A DNA stretch of 64,000 bases from Bacillota bacterium. GTDB lineage: Bacteria > Bacillota_I > Bacilli_A > RF39 > UBA660. This document shows positions 55,800 through 64,000 of this stretch, one piece after another; positions within the stretch are counted from its first letter, which is position 1, and every line of letters begins with the position of its first letter. The position numbers and the translations under genes were made by a program. The stretch is from the NCBI GenBank assembly GCA_015059485.1, contig SVAH01000001.1:1-64000 (forward strand). The letters are read 5' to 3'. Below the pieces are notes generated by a model, which searched no databases, was not told where the DNA came from, and was given only the letters and a program-made list of their open reading frames with translations.

Positions 55800-55996
55800 A
55801 TGAATATTAAACATTTAGAGCAATGAAAGATGCTCAAGTTTTATTGATGAATTTATTAAATAAAAAAACTATATGACAAATCTAACATATTTGATTACGG
55901 TTTATAGTAACAATAAAAATGACTTGAAATTAGATAGAATTATACTAAATTTTATCTTTTTTATGTTATAATTTAATAAGAATGAAATTAATCCAA
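55800..55996 (+). repeat. Degenerate left edge of the cassette array
   Basis: No gene. The stretch GAGCAATGAAAGATGCTC-AAGTTTTATT (from about 55818) resembles the spacer of junction 2 (CAATGAGATCTTGC-AAGTTTTATT), so an eroded spacer seems present. A TGTTATAAT extended -10 box at about 55963-55971 could start a transcript just before the first short reading frame. Confidence 0.4.
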
Positions 55997-56078
55997 ATGA
56001 ATGAAAATAAAACTAATATAAACTGGTTGGTTTGTAATATGCATGCAGTCAAGACTAGGTAAAAAAGAGGTGTAAAAA
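55997..56078 (+). repeat. Array junction 0 (short form)
   Basis: The short frame at 55997-56062 starts MNENKTNINWLVCNMHAV and ends after 21 codons. It is followed by the fused site AGTCAAGACTAG (about 56050) and the ribosome binding site AAAGAGGTG of cassette gene 1. There is no spacer or promoter. The 5' flank ATCCAA before the ATG matches junctions 1, 2 and 7. Confidence 0.8.
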
Positions 56079-56525
56079 ATGATAAACCGTATAATAATGG
56101 AATTGTATGATGATTATTTAAATAATAATATTGAATCACTAATTGAATTTTCAAAAAAAACATTACCATCTGATGGAACTGATAAATTATTTATAGGATG
56201 TATGTTAATTATGTTTTCTAGAGCTAATGGGTTTAAATCAAGATATGATTGTAATAGAGAACAATTATTATCAATAGTATATGCAGTAAAAGAAAAAATA
56301 GGCGAGTCTAATTTATTAGAATTTTATATTGATAGATTAAATACTAAAAAAGGAATAAATAAATATTTTAATAATGTATTTAATGATGTTAATTTAGTAA
56401 AACATGCTGATTTGATAATTAAATATTTGGAACAATTTAAGCCAAGATTTATTGAAGATATAAAAAAATACGAAGATAAAATTGATGCATATATTAAAAA
56501 CAAAGGAGTTGATCCAAATGAATGA
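56079..56525 (+). CDS. Cassette gene 1: unknown protein
   Basis: 148 residues, helical and soluble, no known domain. Recognisable stretches: KLFIGCMLIMFSRANGFKS (about 45-63) and LIIKYLEQFKPRFIEDIKKYEDKID. AAAGAGGTG sits before the ATG. The last residues GVDPNE are encoded by the flanking junction sequence, not by an independent gene end: the stop TGA overlaps the ATG of the following short frame (56518). This implies that the original C-terminus was lost or altered on capture. Confidence 0.7.
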   Translation: MINRIIMELYDDYLNNNIESLIEFSKKTLPSDGTDKLFIGCMLIMFSRANGFKSRYDCNREQLLSIVYAVKEKIGESNLLEFYIDRLNTKKGINKYFNNVFNDVNLVKHADLIIKYLEQFKPRFIEDIKKYEDKIDAYIKNKGVDPNE

Positions 56526-56716
56526 AAATAAAACTAATATAAACTGGTTGAGAATAATTTAATTAAGAACATGTGGAAATCCTTATAAATAAAGTAGTTT
56601 TTCAAAAATAGATCTTGCATATTTTTAATAAAAGCAGTTAAAAATAAGTGATTTTTTGTTAAGAAGTTTCCAGGTGATTGCGGAAGTTAAGAACATATAA
56701 ATAAGAGGTGATAGTA
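56502..56716 (+). repeat. Array junction 1 (long form, spacer class I)
   Basis: Short frame 56518-56562, MNENKTNINWLRII. Site A AATTAAGAACAT (56561-56572); site B AGTTAAGAACAT (56685-56696). The spacer carries AATCCTTATAAA near A and the class I block GATCTTGCAT...GTTAAAA (promoter-like). AAGAGGTG leads to gene 2. Sites A and B share one word, different from other junctions. Confidence 0.85.
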
Positions 56717-56962
56717 ATGAAAAATGAGCAAGATAAAATAGTTAAAGCAAGAGAATTCTGTCAAAAAGTTAAAGAACTTGCAAAAGAATATAGTTTATCT
56801 TTCTTTGTTGTTACAGAGGGTGCAAGTGCAATAAGTAATAATGGGTGTGAAGCTGTAAAAAATGCTAGAGATAACCATATAAAATGGGAATTAGAACACG
56901 GTAGTGATCCTTACGAAGATTGGGATAAGGATAAAGGAGGCAATCCAAATGAACAAAAATAA
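56717..56962 (+). CDS. Cassette gene 2: small conserved Bacillota protein
   Basis: 81 residues from ATG 56717 (the GTG at 56708 is part of the ribosome binding site). The block AREFCQKVKELAKEYSLSFF followed by VVTEGASAISNNGCEAVKNARDNHIKWE matches a small family of hypothetical proteins common in Bacillota and their phages, of unknown function. The C-terminus GGNPNEQK is read from the junction sequence, as in genes 1, 5 and 6. Confidence 0.75.
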   Translation: MKNEQDKIVKAREFCQKVKELAKEYSLSFFVVTEGASAISNNGCEAVKNARDNHIKWELEHGSDPYEDWDKDKGGNPNEQK

Positions 56963-57174
56963 AACTAATATAAACTGGTTGGCTTGTATTTATGGCGACA
57001 ATCACTTAAATCCTTATAAAATGGAAATTTTTAAACAATGAGATCTTGCAAGTTTTATTAAAAAATGAAGAAAAAGCAAAAAAAATAGATTAAAATATGT
57101 CCATTTTTGAGAGAAATTAGGGTACTGGCTTGTAATATGTCGATAAATTTTAATGACAAAAAAGAGGTGATTAT
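56933..57174 (+). repeat. Array junction 2 (long form, spacer class I)
   Basis: Short frame 56949-57041, starting MNKNKTNINWLACIYGD and running to 30 residues. Site A GGCTTGTATTTATGGCGACA (56981-57000) is matched by site B GGCTTGTAATATGTCGATAA (57127-57146). Spacer with GATCTTGC and AATCCTTATAAAAT. AAAGAGGTG follows before gene 3. This A/B pair is the most divergent from the AGTC-type pairs, yet the two members agree with each other. Confidence 0.85.
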
Positions 57175-57681
57175 ATGATATCTTTAACTGAATATAAACA
57201 GTATCTGATCAGTGTTTGTCACTGGCCAATAGATCATGATATTGCTGAAATTGAGAAAAGAAAGAATATAATGAATAAGAGATATTCAGATGAATATTTA
57301 GAAAAAATCATTTCTGATACATATAGTTTTATATATGATGTTTTAGAATCTGAAACAATTAAAGATGGGTATTTTAAAAAAGCTGTTGATGATGATACAA
57401 CTTCATATATAGATTTGAATTTATCTGGTGGTGCGTGTTCGGACACTTTATTTGTTGATGATAGCACAGGAAGAATAATAAGTAATTATTTGATGCATCA
57501 AGTTTGGGGAAGAGATTTGATTATTTATATTAAATGTGATGAAATTGAAGATGATAGTGATGAAGATATTTTGAGTTTTTATTTTAGATATTATATTTAC
57601 ATACAAGGATTTCCTGAAAATATTGATAAAGTAAAAGAAAGTATTTTTGGAAAAAGTAAACAGTTAATAAAAAGGAGTTGA
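57175..57681 (+). CDS. Cassette gene 3: unknown acidic protein
   Basis: 168 residues. No family recognised. Features: SLTEYKQYLISVCHWPIDHDI at the start, a central TTSYIDLNLSGGACSDTLFVDD and an aromatic-rich FYFRYYIYIQGFPENIDKV near the end. Soluble, no signal. Size and acidity would suit an immunity-like or adaptor protein, which is speculation. The stop (57679-57681) lies in the ribosome binding site of the next short frame. Confidence 0.65.
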   Translation: MISLTEYKQYLISVCHWPIDHDIAEIEKRKNIMNKRYSDEYLEKIISDTYSFIYDVLESETIKDGYFKKAVDDDTTSYIDLNLSGGACSDTLFVDDSTGRIISNYLMHQVWGRDLIIYIKCDEIEDDSDEDILSFYFRYYIYIQGFPENIDKVKESIFGKSKQLIKRS

Positions 57682-57762
57682 TAGGGATGAATGAAAATAA
57701 AACTAACATAAATTGGTTGAGAACAATTTAGTCAAGACCAACAAAAATAGAGGTGATAAAAT
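57671..57762 (+). repeat. Array junction 3 (short form)
   Basis: Short frame 57687-57731, MNENKTNINWLRTI, preceded by GGAGTTGATAGGG. A single fused site AGTCAAGACCA (57730-57740) is followed within 12 bp by AGAGGTG and gene 4. No spacer or promoter, so gene 4 must be read from upstream. This is what deletion between A and B of a long junction would leave. Confidence 0.85.
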
Positions 57763-58437
57763 ATGAAATTAGTTACTTTTCAAACAATTGAAGCAGTTAA
57801 TGATTTATTTAAAAAAGGTTATTTAGAATGTAATAAAAATAAAATAAATTTAGAAAAATCTGGTCCAACTTATAAATGGGTTCTCAATAAAATGAATGAA
57901 AGGATACCTAATCCAAATAATGTAGATTATCCTTTATGGTGTTGGGTAAAATGTTATAATGGAATATGTCCACCTAAGAAAAAAGGAAAAAGAGTTGAAG
58001 GTTTTGATGTTAAAATAACATTTAATAAAAATGAAAAAGATGTTTTTATTACTGATTTTAGAAGATATTCATTTCTTTTAAAGAATACATATATTCCAAA
58101 TTCTTTAAAAGAAAAAGAGGAATTTGAAAAACTATTGCAAAAATATGATATAACAGCAGAAGAACTAAAAGCATATGTTAGACCTGACAAATATAAAAAT
58201 AATAGAACTGATAAAGAATATATTGATATATGTGATAAAATTAGAAAAACTTTTGATAGATGTATTACTAAAAATAGTGATGTGCTACAAGGATGTGTTT
58301 GGAGGATAAATCTTGATGAAGTAGAAAAAATAGAAATATTAAAAGATGATGGATATGTTTATGGATCTTTAAATTACATAAGAAGTAATGGAAAAAGAAT
58401 AGATTGGCAAAAAGACTATTATAAGTTATTAAAATAA
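57763..58437 (+). CDS. Cassette gene 4: DUF3841 protein
   Basis: 224 residues. The family pattern is clear: KLVTFQTIEAVNDLFKKGYL at the start, TYKWVLNKMNERI, then YPLWCWVKCYNG (P-x-W-x-W), VEGFDVKITFNKNEKDVFITDF, and a late Q-x-x-x-W-R-I (LQGCVWRINLDEV). DUF3841 proteins are single-domain, cytoplasmic and uncharacterised. Unlike genes 1, 2, 5 and 6, its stop precedes the junction flank. It lacks its own promoter. Confidence 0.85.
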   Translation: MKLVTFQTIEAVNDLFKKGYLECNKNKINLEKSGPTYKWVLNKMNERIPNPNNVDYPLWCWVKCYNGICPPKKKGKRVEGFDVKITFNKNEKDVFITDFRRYSFLLKNTYIPNSLKEKEEFEKLLQKYDITAEELKAYVRPDKYKNNRTDKEYIDICDKIRKTFDRCITKNSDVLQGCVWRINLDEVEKIEILKDDGYVYGSLNYIRSNGKRIDWQKDYYKLLK

Positions 58438-58669
58438 CGGAGTTGATAGGGATGAATGAACATAAAACTAATATAAACTGGTTGATAACAATTTAGTCTA
58501 ACTATACATGAAACTCCTATAAAATAAGGAAAAACTAATACTTAATAATTACATATTTTAATAAATAATTACTAAAAAATAATAAAAATGACCAAAATAA
58601 TATTAAAAATAACAAAGTATTTAATACTTGGTGTTTACAGTCTAACTTTTAATAAAAAGAGGTGAAATA
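58438..58669 (+). repeat. Array junction 4 (long form, spacer class II)
   Basis: Short frame 58452-58496, MNEHKTNINWLITI. Site A AGTCTAAC (58495-58502), site B AGTCTAAC (58639-58646), the latter in TTGGTGTTTACAGTCTAAC. The class II spacer has AACTCCTATAAAATAAGG, a promoter-like TTACAT plus A/T-rich -10 region, and the inverted repeat AAGTATT/AATACTT just before B. AAAGAGGTG precedes gene 5. Confidence 0.85.
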
Positions 58670-58984
58670 ATGAAAAAAGTAAATGTTACTAAGATATTAA
58701 TAATTATTTCAGTTATTATAATTGTTTTAGGGATAATAACAGGAATTGGAGTATCTAATTCTATTGATAATTCTATTCCTAAAGAAAGTATATATGTTGA
58801 TGGATCTGATTTTTCTGGTATAGTACAAATTGCTGGGATAATGGGTTCAAAGATGATAGGTACATTAATAGTATTTGGTAGTTTTGTTATAGATGCTTTT
58901 ATTTGGCTAATATATGGATTTATAATATTAATTATTAATATAGTTAAAAAAATAAAGAATAAGGGAGTTGATAGGGATGAATGA
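58670..58984 (+). CDS. Cassette gene 5: small membrane protein
   Basis: 104 residues. Helix 1 about residues 9-30 (ILIIISVIIIVLGIITGIGV), a short exterior loop with a Ser/Asp-rich stretch, then hydrophobic segments about 45-65 and 68-92 (GTLIVFGSFVIDAFIWLIYGFI). It ends KKIKNKGVDRDE; the last six residues come from the junction flank and are identical to those of gene 6. Function unknown. Its promoter is probably the one in junction 4. Confidence 0.68.
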   Translation: MKKVNVTKILIIISVIIIVLGIITGIGVSNSIDNSIPKESIYVDGSDFSGIVQIAGIMGSKMIGTLIVFGSFVIDAFIWLIYGFIILIINIVKKIKNKGVDRDE

Positions 58985-59205
58985 AAATAAAACTAATATA
59001 AATTGGTTGATTACAATTAATTTAAACCACTTTGGAACTTCTTGTAATATAAAGGAAAACTAGAAAATAGATCTTACATGTTTTGAATAAAAATATGTTA
59101 AAATAGATAAAAATTGGTCAAAAATGACTATTTTTAATACAAAATAGCGGAAGAATTAGTAAAGTGATTACAGAAGTTAAACCACTAGAAAACTGAGGTG
59201 AATAT
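58961..59205 (+). repeat. Array junction 5 (long form, spacer class I)
   Basis: Short frame 58977-59063, MNENKTNINWLITINLNHF and on to 28 residues. Site A ATTTAAACCACT (about 59020-59031) is matched by site B AGTTAAACCACT (59175-59186). Upstream parts also agree (TTGATTACA versus GTGATTACA). Spacer: ATCTTACAT, 19 nt, TAAAAT and a small AAATGACTATTT hairpin. GAGGTG leads into gene 6. Confidence 0.85.
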
Positions 59206-59619
59206 ATGGACTATATATTAGGATATGATTGTGATGGTAATGAAATATATGAATATAGAGTTTTACGTGCCATTTGGTCAAATGATATAGATATAAAGGA
59301 TTTAGAAGATGCTGATCCAAGACAATATTGTGCTATTGTAAGTGATGATGGAATTGCTTATGCAATTAGTGTTTATGATTGGTGGAATAGTGATTTAATC
59401 AGAAAAAAAGAAGAAATAAAAGAAACTGAAGAAATACCAATAGTTGTAAAGCCAATAAATGAAATGATAAATTATGAAGTTGCAACTTGTAGTGAAGGAG
59501 ATTTTTATTATAGTTTAAATCGTAATGAATTAAAGAAAAAGCTAAATGAAATCTTAAATAAAGGTCATAATAAAGTAAAAAAATTGGTAAATAATAAAGG
59601 AGTTGATAGGGATGAATAA
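59206..59619 (+). CDS. Cassette gene 6: unknown protein
   Basis: 137 residues. The N-terminal half (YILGYDCDGNEIYEYRVLRAIW, then DPRQYCAIVSDDGIAYAISVYDWW) seems a small alpha/beta domain. A Glu/Ile/Lys linker leads to a second part with VATCSEGDFYYSLNRNELKKKLNEIL. No family recognised. The C-terminus NNKGVDRDE is shared with gene 5 and derives from the junction. Soluble. Confidence 0.65.
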   Translation: MDYILGYDCDGNEIYEYRVLRAIWSNDIDIKDLEDADPRQYCAIVSDDGIAYAISVYDWWNSDLIRKKEEIKETEEIPIVVKPINEMINYEVATCSEGDFYYSLNRNELKKKLNEILNKGHNKVKKLVNNKGVDRDE

Positions 59620-59830
59620 AAATAAAACTAATATAAATTGGTTGATATTGATTTAGTCTAGCCATTCATAAAATTCCAATAAAATATGGGAAAAACAAGT
59701 ATATACTTGTTACATAATTTAATAAGAATCTGTAAAATAATAATAAAAATAGCTAAAAAAGTATCAAAAATGGCATAGCATTTGATACTTGGTATTGACG
59801 GTTAAACTTTTATAAAAAGAGGTGATATAA
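59596..59830 (+). repeat. Array junction 6 (long form, spacer class II)
   Basis: Short frame 59612-59656, MNKNKTNINWLILI. Site A AGTCTAGCC (59655-59663), with TTGATATTGATTT before it; site B GGTTAAACT (59800-59808), preceded by TTGGTATTGAC. Here the left parts of A and B agree but the AGTC parts do not. The spacer contains the palindrome ACAAGTATATACTTGT, promoter TTACAT-17-TAAAAT, and the 10-bp stem AAGTATCAAA/TTTGATACTT. Confidence 0.82.
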
Positions 59831-60352
59831 ATGAATTATACAATAGAAAAACTGAGTGTAGATAATGCACATGAATATGCATATGTTAATTCACGTGCAT
59901 GGCTAGAATCATATAAAGGCATAATTGACGATGAATATCTTGAAAAAATAAATACTGATGAGAGTATAAAAACTTTTACTGAAAAATTAAAAGGATATGT
60001 AGTTAATGATCCAGATTATTTCTTTTTGTTGAGAGTTGAAGGAAAACCTGCTGGAGTTCTATGCGTTAGAAATCCAAAGTATGAAGATTATCAAGATTGT
60101 GGTGAACTCGGTGCTATATATTTATTAAATGAAGCAAAGGGGAAAGGATATGGAAAAGTTCTTTTCAAATTTGCAAAAGAAGAATTAAAAAAGATGGGTT
60201 ATAAAAAGATGGTAAATGGTTGTATTGATGGAAATCCATCAAATGAATTTTATAAGCATATGGGTGGTAAGTTAGTAAAACAAATTTCATTTGTTGTTAA
60301 AAACTATGGACAAGAATTAACTGAAAATGTATATTATTATGAAAATATTTAA
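59831..60352 (+). CDS. Cassette gene 7: GNAT N-acetyltransferase
   Basis: 173 residues. GNAT landmarks: YTIEKLSVDNAHEYAYVNSRAW with SYKGIIDDEYLEKI (a RimI/YjaB-like N-terminus), beta4 GELGAIYLLNEAKGKGYGKVLF (about 98-118) with the acetyl-CoA loop KGKGYG, and PSNEFYKHMGGKLVKQISF at the end. Acceptor unknown; could acetylate a small molecule or antibiotic. It has its own promoter in junction 6. The stop precedes the junction flank. Confidence 0.9.
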   Translation: MNYTIEKLSVDNAHEYAYVNSRAWLESYKGIIDDEYLEKINTDESIKTFTEKLKGYVVNDPDYFFLLRVEGKPAGVLCVRNPKYEDYQDCGELGAIYLLNEAKGKGYGKVLFKFAKEELKKMGYKKMVNGCIDGNPSNEFYKHMGGKLVKQISFVVKNYGQELTENVYYYENI

Positions 60353-60441
60353 AGTAGTTGATCCAAATGAATGAAAATAAAACTAATATAAATTGGTTGA
60401 TAACAATTTAGTCAAGACCAGATAAAAATGAGGTGATTTAT
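60353..60441 (+). repeat. Array junction 7 (short form)
   Basis: Short frame 60367-60411, MNENKTNINWLITI, with GTTGATCCAA before the ATG. Single fused site AGTCAAGACCA (60410-60420), then GAGGTG and gene 8. No spacer or promoter, so genes 7 and 8 form one transcription unit. Confidence 0.85.
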
Positions 60442-61002
60442 ATGTCAAATATATATTTAAAGTTTCCAACAATAGATGATAAGGAAAAGTGGATTGAATA
60501 TTTAAAGGAATATCGTTTAGATAATCCTAAAGCTAAACCTTTAAGTTGTACTGAGGATATTAATTATGAGGAATGGCTTAATAAAATAACAAAAGAACAT
60601 AATGGTATAGATTTGGAAGAAGGTAGGGTACCATCATCTGTTTATTTTTTAATGAATGATGATAGAATTGTTGGTAATCTATCAATAAGACATAATATTG
60701 ATAATGAATTTCTTTCACGTATTGGTGGTCATATAGGATATGGCGTAAGGCCTAGTGAAAGAAGAAAAGGTTATGCTACAATAATGCTTAATTTAGCACT
60801 TGAAAAGTGTGATGAATTAGGATTAGAAAATGTACTTGTAACATGCAAAGAAGATAATATTGGTTCAGCTAAAACAATTGAAAATAATTGTGGTGTTTTA
60901 AAAGAAGTAATATTTGATTCACAAGAAAATTGTAAATTTAAAAAATATTGGATAAATATAAAAGAAGCATTGATTAAAAAAGAAGAAATCAGAAGGAGGT
61001 AA
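60442..61002 (+). CDS. Cassette gene 8: GNAT N-acetyltransferase
   Basis: 186 residues from ATG 60442 (GAGGTG upstream). NIYLKFPTIDDKEKWIEYLKEY at the start, NDDRIVGNLSIRHNIDNEF, then GGHIGYGVRPSERRKGYATIMLNLAL (about 96-121) with the R-R-K-G-Y-A cofactor loop, and CKEDNIGSAKTIENNCGVL before a terminal strand. It is a standard GNAT close to the group that acts on small molecules. It ends RRR at its own stop, which lies in the GGAGG of the next short frame. Confidence 0.9.
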   Translation: MSNIYLKFPTIDDKEKWIEYLKEYRLDNPKAKPLSCTEDINYEEWLNKITKEHNGIDLEEGRVPSSVYFLMNDDRIVGNLSIRHNIDNEFLSRIGGHIGYGVRPSERRKGYATIMLNLALEKCDELGLENVLVTCKEDNIGSAKTIENNCGVLKEVIFDSQENCKFKKYWINIKEALIKKEEIRRR

Positions 61003-61252
61003 TACTTATGAATAATGAAGAAAAAAATTTCCAAAAAACGAACATTAACTGGTTGATAACAATTTAGTCAAGACCAACTCCAAACAGTTATAAAATAAGG
61101 AAAAGCTCAAAAGCAGATCTTGCTTGTTTTATATAAAAATATGTTAAAATAGATAAATATTGATAAAGTATTAGTGAATTTAGACAAAAATTGTTTAGAA
61201 ATTGATATGGTGAGAACGGATAGTCAAGACCAGATGGAAGGAGAAGAAAACA
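60991..61252 (+). repeat. Array junction 8 (long form, spacer class I, divergent short frame)
   Basis: Short frame 61008-61067, MNNEEKNFQKTNINWLITI, longer and with different codons for KTNIN (ACG AAC ATT instead of ACT AAT ATA). Site A AGTCAAGACCA (61066-61076), site B AGTCAAGACCA (61222-61232), identical. Class I spacer with GATCTTGCTT, 19 nt, TAAAAT. AAGGAGAAG precedes gene 9. Confidence 0.87.
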
Positions 61253-61801
61253 ATGATTAAAGTTATAGCTTTTGATATGGTTGGCGTGTTAGTTAAAGAA
61301 AAGGCTAAAGCTCTAAATGATATTGAAGATAAAATAGAAAGAAAATTTGGTGATATTTTATCTGATCAAGATTTCATTAACGAATGTATGCCTATTATTA
61401 AAGATGAAAATATTATAATTAATACTGCAAAGGATATATGCAATAAATTATATGAGATAAAAGACTATAATATTTTTAAAAATATAAAAAAAATGTATCC
61501 AAATATTAAAATATGTATAGCAACTAATCATGTATCTTATATAAACGAATTTATTAGTAATAATATGGATATAAGTAATGTGGATAATATATTTATATCT
61601 GCAGAAATAAACAAGGTAAAACCTAACAAAGATTTTTTTCTTTATATATTAAATCATTATAATATAAATCCTAGTGAATTATTATTCCTAGATGATAGTG
61701 ATAGAAATATTATAGGGGCATCTAACTTAGGCATTAATTCTATTAAAGTCAATAAAGAAACTAGCATGCTAACCGAAATAGAAAATATTATTAAAAAGTA
61801 G
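61253..61801 (+). CDS. Cassette gene 9: HAD-superfamily hydrolase
   Basis: 182 residues. Motif I IAFDMVGVLVKE keeps the nucleophile Asp but has Val where the general acid/base Asp (DxD) is usual, as in some YihX-like members with a changed second position. Motif II CIATNH, motif III Lys in NKVKPNKDFF, motif IV FLDDSDRNIIGA. A helical cap lies between residues 18 and 85. Probably a phosphatase or phosphatase-like protein; the altered motif I may reduce activity. Confidence 0.88.
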   Translation: MIKVIAFDMVGVLVKEKAKALNDIEDKIERKFGDILSDQDFINECMPIIKDENIIINTAKDICNKLYEIKDYNIFKNIKKMYPNIKICIATNHVSYINEFISNNMDISNVDNIFISAEINKVKPNKDFFLYILNHYNINPSELLFLDDSDRNIIGASNLGINSIKVNKETSMLTEIENIIKK

Positions 61802-62031
61802 GTGAAAAATCATGAATAATGAAAATAAAACTAATATAAATTGGTTGGTGTTTATTTAGTCTAGCCATTCGTGAAACTCCTATAAAATAAAGGTAAAATG
61901 AATATTTAGTAATTACATATTTTAATAAATAATTACTAAAAAATATTAAAAATAGATAAAAAATAACAAAAATAGTAAAGTATTTGATACTTGGTGTTTA
62001 CAGTCTAACTTTTGATAAAAGAGGTGAAATA
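61802..62031 (+). repeat. Array junction 9 (long form, spacer class II)
   Basis: Short frame 61812-61859, MNNENKTNINWLVFI. Site A AGTCTAGCC (61858-61866) with TTGGTGTTTATTT before it; site B AGTCTAAC (62002-62009) preceded by TTGGTGTTTAC, so the pair agrees over most of its length. Class II spacer nearly identical to junction 4, with AACTCCTATAAAATAAAGG, TTACAT and AAGTAT/ATACTT. Confidence 0.85.
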
Positions 62032-62637
62032 ATGAAAGATTATTTTAAAGAAGATGAATATTGGAAAGAACATATTAATAAAGCTTTAGAAGAAGATTTA
62101 TGGATTAATAGTTATAAAGATTGTTTAAATGGTGGTCTTTGTCTAGATTTGGGTTGTGGAATAGGTCAATTTTCTAAATGGTTTATGGAAAATGGTTATG
62201 AAGTTATTTCATCTGATATTTCTAAAATTGCTTTAGAAAAAGTTAAAGAATTTAATAGTAATGTAGTTAATGTAGATATGAGAGAAAAACTACCATTTGA
62301 AGATAATAAGTTTGATGTAGTTTTTGCTAATTTATCTATTCATTATTTTTCTGATTCTGACACTAAAAGTTTAATGAATGAAATTAAAAGAATATTAAAA
62401 AAAGATGGTTTATTTATAGGTAGTGTTAATGGTATTCAGGGATTAGAAAAAATAAAAGAAACAGCAAAAAAATTAGATTATCATTACTATTATAATAAAG
62501 ATAAATATATAAGATTATTTGATGTAGAAGATGTAAAAAAATATTTAAATATATTTGATATAATAAAAATAGATGAAAGAGAAACTGTAAGATTTGATCA
62601 TAAGAAAAATTATATAATTTTTATAGCAAAAAAGTAG
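62032..62637 (+). CDS. Cassette gene 10: class I SAM-dependent methyltransferase
   Basis: 201 residues from ATG 62032 (GAGGTG upstream; the frame extended to 61984 runs through site B). Motif I LCLDLGCGIGQFSKWF (about 42-57), motif post-I EVISSDIS, motif II FDVVFANLSIHYFSD, motif III LKKDGLFIGSVNG. This is the methyltransferase 11/25 fold; the substrate could be a small molecule or protein. Small size suits a single-domain enzyme without a specificity domain. Confidence 0.9.
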   Translation: MKDYFKEDEYWKEHINKALEEDLWINSYKDCLNGGLCLDLGCGIGQFSKWFMENGYEVISSDISKIALEKVKEFNSNVVNVDMREKLPFEDNKFDVVFANLSIHYFSDSDTKSLMNEIKRILKKDGLFIGSVNGIQGLEKIKETAKKLDYHYYYNKDKYIRLFDVEDVKKYLNIFDIIKIDERETVRFDHKKNYIIFIAKK

Positions 62638-62879
62638 GTGAAAAAGTATGAATAATGAAGAAAAAAACTTACAAAAAACAAACATTAACTGGTTGATATT
62701 GATTTAGTCTAGCCATTCATTAAACTCCTATAAAATAAGGAAAAACAAGTATATGCTTGTTACATATTTAAATATAAATATATAAAATGATAATAAAAAT
62801 AACTAAAAAAGTATCAAAAATATCATAGTATTTTATACTTGGTATTGACGGTTAAACTATTATAAAAAGAGGTGCAAAT
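62638..62879 (+). repeat. Array junction 10 (long form, spacer class II, divergent short frame)
   Basis: Short frame 62648-62707, MNNEEKNLQKTNINWLILI, again the longer variant (compare junction 8). Site A AGTCTAGCC (62706-62714), site B GGTTAAACT (62850-62858), with the same left-half agreement as junction 6. Spacer with TTACAT-17-TAAAAT promoter and AAGTAT...ATACTT hairpin. Confidence 0.85.
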
Positions 62880-63422
62880 ATGGATAATACAAAAACTTTA
62901 GAAACAGAAAGATTAATACTTAGAAAATTTACTATTGAAGATGCAGAAGGAATGTTTAATAATTGGGCAACTGATTCAGAAACAAATAAATTCTTATCAT
63001 GGCCGCTTCATAATAATGTGGATGAAACAAGGACAGTTATTAGCAAATGGATATCAAATTATGAAAATGGTTCATATAACTGGATTGTTGAAACTAAAGA
63101 TACACGTGAAGTAATTGGAAGTATTTGTGAAGAAGGTAAAAGTGTTAAACACAAAACAATTTCATTAGGATATTGTTATGGTTCTAAATATTGGAATAAA
63201 GGATATGCATCAGAAGTGTTAAGAAGAGTAATTGAATATCTACTAACTGAACAAGATTTTTATTTAGTTGAAGCAAATCATAGATCTTCAAATCCAGCAA
63301 GTGGTAGAGTTATGGAAAAAGCTGGTATGAAATATGATGGAACACTAAGAGAAAGAAGAATAAATCCTGATGGAACACGTGCTGATATGATTTATTATTC
63401 TATTACTAAAAATGAATTATAA
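62880..63422 (+). CDS. Cassette gene 11: GNAT acetyltransferase of the RimJ/RimL type
   Basis: 180 residues. LETERLILRKFTIEDAEGMFNNWATD is the RimJ/RimL start, followed by WIVETKDTREVIGSICEEG, SLGYCYGSKYWNKGYASEVLRRVIEYL (about 99-125, with K-G-Y-A cofactor loop) and HRSSNPASGRVMEKAGMKYDGTLRERR. In this branch substrates include ribosomal protein N-termini and small molecules. Its own promoter lies in junction 10. Confidence 0.93.
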   Translation: MDNTKTLETERLILRKFTIEDAEGMFNNWATDSETNKFLSWPLHNNVDETRTVISKWISNYENGSYNWIVETKDTREVIGSICEEGKSVKHKTISLGYCYGSKYWNKGYASEVLRRVIEYLLTEQDFYLVEANHRSSNPASGRVMEKAGMKYDGTLRERRINPDGTRADMIYYSITKNEL

Positions 63423-63678
63423 TTAAAGGAGATGACTCTCATGAATGAAAATAAAACTAATATAAATTGGTTGATTACGATTTATCCAAGAATAGGAGAA
63501 AACCTAGGTAAAATAAGGAACTGTGAGAGTTAACATCTTGCATGCTTAACTTAAAAATATGATAAAATATAAAAAAATTAACAAAAAATGACTATTTTTA
63601 ATGCAAAATAGTAGAGGAATTAGTAAGGTAATTACGCCACCTAATAATACGAAATAATTTGAACACAGAGGTGATAGT
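63423..63678 (+). repeat. Array junction 11 (long form, spacer class I)
   Basis: Short frame 63441-63533, MNENKTNINWLITIYPRI and on to 30 residues, preceded by AAAGGAGATGACTCTC. Site A contains TTGATTACGATTTATCC; site B GTAATTACGCCACCTAATA (about 63628-63646), matched in the left part. Spacer: ATCTTGCAT, 19 nt, TAAAAT and AAATGACTATTT. GAGGTG leads into gene 12. Confidence 0.82.
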
Positions 63679-64000
63679 ATGTATGGAGCTATAGTTGGAG
63701 ATTTAGCGGGTAGTATATATGAATTTGATCAATTAAAAAAAATTCATAGAGTACAAATGAATAATTTAATTGAAGATAATGCTTTCTATAGTGATGATAC
63801 TATTTTAACTATTGCTACACTGGATGCGATACTTAATAATAAAGATTATGATTATTATTTACGAAAATACATACAAGAATATAGTGAGTATAAACCTGAT
63901 TTTAATCCGTATTTTAAATCATCTTTTTCACCTAACTTGATAAAGTGGAGTAAATCAAATGCAATTGGTAATAGTCATGGTAATGGAACTATGATGAGAA
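63679..64000 (+). CDS. Cassette gene 12: ADP-ribosylglycohydrolase, cut by the window edge
   Basis: 107 codons visible, no stop before position 64000. MYGAIVGDLAGSIYEF is the first conserved block of the DraG/ARH family. AFYSDDTILTIATLDAILN supplies the metal-binding S/T-D-D motif, and GNSHGNGTMMR is the next family block. It would remove ADP-ribose from proteins, nucleic acid or small molecules. The usual length is about 250-300 residues, so more than half is missing. Next to many acetyltransferases it fits a stress or modification-reversal cargo. Confidence 0.92.
   Translation, partial: MYGAIVGDLAGSIYEFDQLKKIHRVQMNNLIEDNAFYSDDTILTIATLDAILNNKDYDYYLRKYIQEYSEYKPDFNPYFKSSFSPNLIKWSKSNAIGNSHGNGTMMR

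Follow-up and report, generated by a model that had tools for sequence, protein, structure and literature searches.

Single-gene cassettes stacked at the 5' end of rbgA in an uncultured gut Bacillota, most likely placed by serine recombinase pairs of integrative and conjugative elements

The stretch analysed here, called the window, comprises 64,000 nucleotides, positions 1 to 64,000 of contig SVAH01000001.1 (C4) of a Bacillota metagenome-assembled genome (MAG; assembly GCA_015059485.1, the source genome G000; 1.41 Mb, 74% complete), and from position 55,997 onwards it carries an array of single-gene cassettes. The array most likely arose by successive site-specific insertions at the 5' end of rbgA (ylqF), an essential gene that encodes a ribosome biogenesis GTPase. 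It is made up of minimal cassettes that have ends of the type found in an integrative and conjugative element (ICE) and would have been placed in trans by cognate pairs of large serine recombinases (LSRs). This reading of the sequence draws on the end point of the arrays in rbgA, an LSR pair adjoining rbgA, ends shared by ICEs and cassettes, a linkage break at a TG dinucleotide, and cassettes common to different genera.

All 12 cargo open reading frames (ORFs) of the window lie on the + strand between 56079 and 64000, each with a leader 5' of the ORF, in agreement with the original prediction of at least twelve single-gene cassettes on one strand with a common junction. The array continues past the window to C4:70409, giving a total of 18 junctions and 17 cassettes. 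Sixteen of the 17 cassettes hold one gene; the exception (C4:64.5-66.2 kb) holds two, for an HTH regulator and a CAAX-protease-like protein. The leader usually reads ATG AAT GAA AAT AAA ACT AAT ATA AAY TGG TTG, or a variant, and is longer, ending in KTNINWL, at junctions J9 and J11. The ribosome-binding site (RBS) before each cargo gene had been described as the same throughout; this held for 11 of 12, which have GAGGTG, and failed at J9, which has GGAAGGAGAAG. Nine junctions are long, with a 120-200 nt spacer (J2, 3, 5, 6, 7, 9, 10, 11 and 12), where eight or nine had been counted before, and three are short (J1, 4 and 8). The spacers carry promoter-like elements. The pattern AAAACTAATATAAAYTGGTTG (<=2 mismatches) gave 15 matches in the 1.41 Mb genome, all on the + strand and all inside C4:56009-69149, and its reversed control gave 0 matches in the same genome. 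The junction is therefore not a genome-wide dispersed repeat, the finding that would have counted against a cassette array.

The leader corresponds to the N-terminus of rbgA. Cassettes read MNENKTNINW followed by L, and where arrays end in rbgA the same MNENKTNINW is followed by YPGHMAKTKR; the last leader copy in relatives reads MNENKTNINWYPGHMAKTKR, which is the rbgA N-terminus joined to rbgA in frame. Among 55 array loci, a same-strand rbgA was found downstream in 22, and 25 run out of sequence <=4 kb past the last junction. In G000, a 53 kb insert consisting of the array and an ICE parts the rbgA promoter and first codons (55.97 kb) from the remainder of the gene. The first leader lies behind what is presumably the native rbgA promoter, whose -10 element also precedes variant leaders, MDNKTNINWL, at C4:66290, 68440 and 70360.

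The exchange point was mapped on 161 junctions of 14 end types. Mutual information between base and end type reached z 13.0 at the first base right of a TG that is invariant in 160 of the 161, and left of this TG z was <=2.5 despite variation there (C in 103 and T in 58 directly 5' of TG). Junction sequence right of the exchange point goes with the downstream insert, that is, with its end type, and sequence on the left goes with the upstream leader. This linkage break at an invariant TG maps the exchange point to the TG of the Trp codon. On the rbgA side, one ICE in different hosts is identical through AACTG, after which the sequence is host-specific. A 2-bp crossover is the format expected of serine recombinases, and the junctions pinpoint the TG in the Trp codon of INW as the putative 2-bp crossover of such an enzyme.

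A recombinase near the array had been proposed as something to look for, and an LSR pair was found outside the window, on the adjoining ICE, 35-39 kb past the array. The ICE encodes ParB-like, pilin-like, sortase, VirB4, relaxase (MobL) and VirD4 (CD1115 family) proteins and a type I restriction system, and it supplies its own promoter-like sequence and a new rbgA N-terminus, MSNTNENQSVAKTNINW. It is closed by the two overlapping LSR genes, the second of which stops 46 bp short of the rbgA ATG in G000. Both LSRs matched PF00239 (Resolvase), PF07508 (Recombinase) and PF13408 (Zn-ribbon) above cut-off, with the YTRRS/YLRLS and SRLGRN motifs intact. Orthologous LSR pairs in the same order are present in at least 17 loci of the family. 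Among the LSR-pair loci fetched, 13 have rbgA beginning 46-68 bp past the second LSR, where the others have a contig end (L166, L176), a second ICE (G114) or a broken rbgA start (L163). In G114 (C10; L167, L168), two tandem ICEs lie at rbgA, each closed by its own LSR pair, the second ICE being of end type ATTACG..AGTAACT.

About 14-19 discrete left-end types were distinguished, each consisting of a 6-mer and an 8-10 nt arm. In long junctions, the type-specific 6-mer and arm of the left end (L) recur ~150 bp on, directly before the cargo RBS (site R), in direct orientation. When one representative per type was taken (19 types), own L-R pairs covaried more strongly than in 20000 of 20000 permutations, single types being uneven in that 9 of 19 ranked first or second. 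At their left ends, ICEs share the L-spacer-R organisation and the end types of the cassettes, and next come a terminator and the first gene of the ICE. Compared with the resident ICE, those of G114 and G361 have VirB4 proteins 92% and 71% identical, LSRs only 54% and 73% identical, and different end types, and G000 and G376, whose LSRs are 98% identical, share one end type. Because related ICE backbones with divergent LSRs differ in type and near-identical LSRs share one, the end type appears to follow the LSR pair, judging from these four ICEs. In the stretches fetched, no left ends were found for further ICEs with LSR pairs (G126, G330, G177, G111, G071). First cassettes had 11 short and 7 long junctions and internal cassettes 13 short and 89 long (Fisher p 3e-5), these position calls being partly rough where contigs break inside arrays.

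The absence of attC organisation and of an integrase in the window, both noted in the original prediction, was borne out: the L and R copies are direct repeats, not the inverted organisation of attC, and no PF00589 match was obtained within or next to the array, the three in G000 all lying elsewhere. An integron-like system in which a tyrosine recombinase (host Xer or IntI-like) acts on L and R would account for the functional mixture of single-gene units; L sites can be read as 6 bp flanked by two inverted 11-bp arms, several genomes have a Xer gene in a rbgA-topA-xer neighbourhood, and streptococcal tyrosine integrases target the 5' end of rbgA (PMC4701971, PMC8571831). We consider such a system very unlikely, however, since the crossover maps to a 2-bp TG and not to a 6-8 bp overlap, the rbgA junction is occupied by LSR pairs and not by tyrosine recombinases, attC-type folding is not conserved, and G216 (93% complete), with an array of three junctions, has not a single PF00589 match. 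RNA folding of the spacers gave no common fold, the fold differing from type to type. Two candidates were tried and dropped along the way: a tyrosine recombinase as driver, PF00589 matches in 20 array genomes being unlinked to array position and one array genome having none, and a Dif/Xer-like reading of the L sites, whose arms fit loosely, which was abandoned once the LSR pair and the TG break had been found.

A search of related genomes, as first recommended, was made with a junction sequence model against 386 genomes from 150 genera of the source family, and junctions were found in 195 genomes and 101 genera. In an order-wide sample, 98 of 288 genomes had matches at E 1e-7. Two genomes from other families of the class also carry junctions, G514 (C12, L214:9024-9943) and G601 (C26, L213); G514 has a lone cassette immediately 5' of rbgA, in a gene neighbourhood of rbgA, rnhB, topA, trmFO and xer (names by inspection). 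Four matches of the leader to viral contigs were rejected as chance, being antisense to phage genes.

Comparison of cassette content and order, another check proposed at the outset, showed both to differ between relatives. Gene content and order are unrelated, though single cassettes recur: many of 176 cassette ORFs are found in other genera at other positions, including nearly identical cassettes (96-98% in DNA). Cassette 3, for example, is the first cassette in G334 (98% nucleotide identity) and has no spacer there, the left and right breaks falling exactly between CTG and GCTTGT and at the leader TG, respectively. The cargo names given in the original prediction (GNATs, HAD, methyltransferase, ADP-ribosylglycohydrolase, DUF3841) were right, and the cargo is functionally mixed, comprising GNATs, HAD, methyltransferases, S51 peptidase, NUDIX, HD, RhuM and many unknowns. 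No recombinase was present among the 25 commonest Pfam families of 108 cassette proteins, and the 17 cassettes of G000 had no recombinase or transfer-gene domains. An ordinary operon, in which every gene has a regulatory leader peptide and attenuator and nothing is mobile, would explain why the leaders are short translated frames with their own RBS and why the spacers have promoter-like elements, but it is hardly credible for genes whose content and order are unrelated among relatives while single cassettes recur, and whose leader is the N-terminus of rbgA, in frame with it in relatives.

Each insert in the proposed chain has a left end, ~190 bp when long and ~45 bp when short, and a right end made up of a ribosome site and a replacement rbgA N-terminus (M..KTNINW). 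A cognate LSR pair would act at the TG to link the start of rbgA with a cassette or ICE in circular form, the predicted attB being MNENKTNINWYPGHM. Insertion at the TG would cut the old N-terminus from rbgA and bring a new one, and as a functional rbgA start forms the end of every insert, the gene would survive and a fresh attB would be regenerated beside it. The ICE, which is the largest insert and probably the newest, lies beside rbgA. With ICE-type ends, one gene and no recombinase, the cassettes would be minimal cis-mobilizable elements. Spacer promoters would drive the inner cassettes, and the first cassette would be served by the rbgA promoter, which could be why the spacer is dispensable there and has been lost by L x R recombination. 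We infer that the LSRs are the catalysts, that the intermediates are circular, that the cassettes are mobilized in trans and that the array grows at its rbgA end.

Several points weigh against this chain of insertions. All genomes compared are MAGs, and in these assemblies no excision, circle or same-strain empty site was seen; a same-flank empty site, sought in relatives by means of the upstream SGNH hydrolase, was not found either (loci not read individually). Eight of the 55 array loci show no rbgA in reach. A simple palindrome test put the best attB symmetry centre 4 bp right of the TG. Some ORFs with 96-98% nucleotide identity have flanks exchanged at the RBS and stop, which a TG crossover does not explain. 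The end type of the resident LSR pair, GGAAAT..GCAACA, matches none of the 12 window cassettes; the resident pair may therefore not move them. This mismatch would also be expected if the cassettes had the same origin and were now remnants of earlier insertions (cis-mobilizable elements, CIMEs), no longer moved by site-specific recombination but gained, lost and shuffled by homologous recombination between junctions. The 40-190 bp of similar sequence common to junctions would permit such recombination, and the flank swaps and mixed L/R types (L059:5362, L061:14274) resemble short-homology exchange. Immobility nevertheless seems improbable to us, as the single-TG linkage break over 161 junctions needs a site-specific step in the history of the array and 16 of the 17 G000 cassettes are clean single genes, not truncated ICE genes. 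Site-specific insertion by LSR pairs was therefore preferred.

The likeness to integron cassette arrays that had been pointed out stands for the single-gene units and mixed cargo, and extends to directly repeated sites, a single orientation and a promoter before the first cassette. It does not stand for the mechanism, which is closer to accretion beside an ICE. Unlike in integrons, IntI and attC are absent, part of a coding gene serves as the site, the unit supplies a new gene start, and long units have a promoter-like element. Since rbgA lies beyond the array and an ICE ending in LSRs, the array is not an integron; with the leader being the rbgA start and the LSR pair lying on the adjacent ICE, it is closer to an accretion of cis-mobilizable elements (CIMEs), apparently one produced by serine recombinases at an integron-like grain.

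LSRs of the TnpX/TndX type (Tn4451, Tn5397) act singly. The resident enzymes resemble these in that LSR2 matches the TnpX catalytic-domain structure 2mhc (E 2.6e-24), and differ in being paired and targeting rbgA. In staphylococcal cassette chromosomes (SCC/SCCmec), two adjacent LSRs (CcrA and CcrB) act at one fixed chromosomal site, where tandem composite islands form. The array system resembles these in its adjacent LSR pair, fixed site and tandem insertions, but the LSRs, though related to both enzymes, scored 92-94 bits against CcrB (cut-off 900) and 56-69 against CcrA (cut-off 700) (NCBIfam), the site is the 5' end of rbgA instead of the 3' end of rlmH, and the units are single genes.

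CIMEs have been described as decayed ICEs or integrative and mobilizable elements (IMEs), and site-specific IMEs with serine recombinases are said to disrupt dispensable genes (PMC5704250). As in streptococcal CIME/ICE accretion (PMC5704250), recombinase-less units bounded by att sites are stacked beside an ICE, and the stack would grow by insertion at the att site next to the end of the target gene. The units are bounded by att sites of an ICE with the same target, arrays and ICEs both ending in rbgA, as applies to a CIME. They differ from known CIMEs in being clean single-gene cassettes, up to ~17 to an array, apparently formed by serine recombinases. Tn5253 and other streptococcal ICEs likewise target the 5' end of rbgA, with the coding sequence restored by an element-supplied N-terminus (PMC8571831, PMC4701971), but they have tyrosine integrases (PMC4701971), no single-gene arrays have been reported there, and their hosts belong to a different clade. 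A single-gene cassette array of this layout was not found described in the open-licence literature searched, which agrees with the original prediction.

Integrons are the classic platform for stacking single-gene cassettes at a fixed site, and the rbgA arrays appear to solve the same task a second time, using recombinases of an unrelated kind and a target inside a coding sequence. The system was found in about half of the genomes sampled from a large uncultured gut family. We give even chances to a broader reading, that of a counterpart to the integron based on serine recombinases and spread across this family. An essential gene would then offer its 5' end as a standing capture site for single-gene cassettes that restore the gene start, and LSR pairs of ICEs, whether resident in the same cell or passing through, would insert, stack and shuffle them by means of about a dozen end types that are interchangeable. 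A defined site (the TGG codon of rbgA) and candidate enzymes (the LSR pair) are available for asking how single-gene cassettes form and move, a question long open for integrons, and the system may offer new paired LSRs with mapped attachment sites.

Features of the array, the resident ICE and rbgA. Positions are those of C4, which are identical to window positions up to 64000.
Feature	Position	Strand	Details
-10 element of promoter 5' of first leader	55967..55972	+	TATAAT (extended TATGTTATAAT); read from the sequence
J1, short	55997..56078	+	leader MNENKTNINWL; TG crossover 56024-56025; GTTTGT..GTCAAGAC; RBS
Cassette 1 ORF	56079..56525	+	148 aa; without Pfam match; opens the array in G327 (another genus) as well
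J2, long	56518..56716	+	type TTAAGAACA; TG 56545-56546
Cassette 2 ORF	56717..56962	+	81 aa; 94% nt identical cassette in G034, short junction there
J3, long	56949..57174	+	type GCTTGT; TG 56976-56977; R site CTG, then GCTTGTAATATG, ~57127-57142
Cassette 3 ORF	57175..57681	+	168 aa; 98% nt identical in G334
J4, short	57687..57762	+	type AGAACA..GTCAAGACC; TG 57714-57715
Cassette 4 ORF	57763..58437	+	DUF3841 (PF12952, 75 bits)
J5, long	58452..58669	+	L ATAACA..GTCTAACT, R GTGTTT..GTCTAACT; TG 58479-58480
Cassette 5 ORF	58670..58984	+	104 aa, hydrophobic; no Pfam match; stop within leader module (..KGVDRDE, stop)
J6, long	58977..59205	+	type ATTACA..TTAAACC; TG 59004-59005
Cassette 6 ORF	59206..59619	+	137 aa; gene also in G232, G376, G315; other left-end type in G232
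J7, long	59612..59830	+	type ATATTG..GTCTAGCC; TG 59639-59640
Cassette 7 ORF	59831..60352	+	GNAT acetyltransferase
J8, short	60367..60441	+	type ATAACA..GTCAAGACC; TG 60394-60395
Cassette 8 ORF	60442..61002	+	GNAT acetyltransferase
J9, long	61008..61252	+	type ATAACA..GTCAAGACC; longer leader MNNEEKNFQKTNINWL; TG 61050-61051
Cassette 9 ORF	61253..61801	+	HAD hydrolase
J10, long	61812..62031	+	type GTGTTT..GTCTAGCC; TG 61842-61843
Cassette 10 ORF	62032..62637	+	SAM methyltransferase
J11, long	62648..62879	+	type ATATTG..GTCTAGCC; TG 62690-62691
Cassette 11 ORF	62880..63422	+	GNAT acetyltransferase; 96% nt identical gene in G013 (another genus), different left end
J12, long	63441..63678	+	type ATTACG..CCAAGAATAGG; TG 63468-63469
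Cassette 12 ORF	63679..64000, ends at 64443	+	ADP-ribosylglycohydrolase PF03747
ICE between array and rbgA	70.6-105 kb
LSR pair, overlapping genes closing the ICE	105807-107507 and 107477-109045
rbgA, sole copy in G000	109091-109975		TIGR03596 323 bits, cut-off 208

Cargo ORFs ending at window positions 56525, 58984 and 59619, and one at L016:15124, take their stop codon from the leader module (..KGVDPNE or ..KGVDRDE, then the stop). With the stop codons of several cargo ORFs inside the leader module, the cassette joint therefore lies at the very gene end. The right ends at C4:66200, 68340 and 70260 (L016:12200, 14340 and 16260) have a terminator and promoter ahead of the leader MDNKTNINWL, and contain GCCATATGACCAGG, the reverse complement of rbgA CCTGGTCATATGGC, beside an R-like site. 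Inverted rbgA pieces similar to GCCATATGACCAGG were also seen in L068.

Within the ICE, the genes of the type I restriction-modification system occupy C4:94168-102600 (L018). Several specificity-like ORFs, pointing either way, surround a separate tyrosine integrase there (minus strand, C4:100475), a layout that suggests specificity-gene switching. Among ORFs shared across genera at 96-98% nucleotide identity, both flanking modules differ, with breaks at the RBS and stop, between L066:8593 and L076:13460 and between L067:9178 and L149:9953; the ORF at window position 62880 and that at L071:9722 are a further pair from different genera at this identity. A small protein of ~170 aa and unknown function (MSDLSKIILGTGNYY...) was found among the cassettes of three genera, behind left ends of different types (L064, L066, L076).

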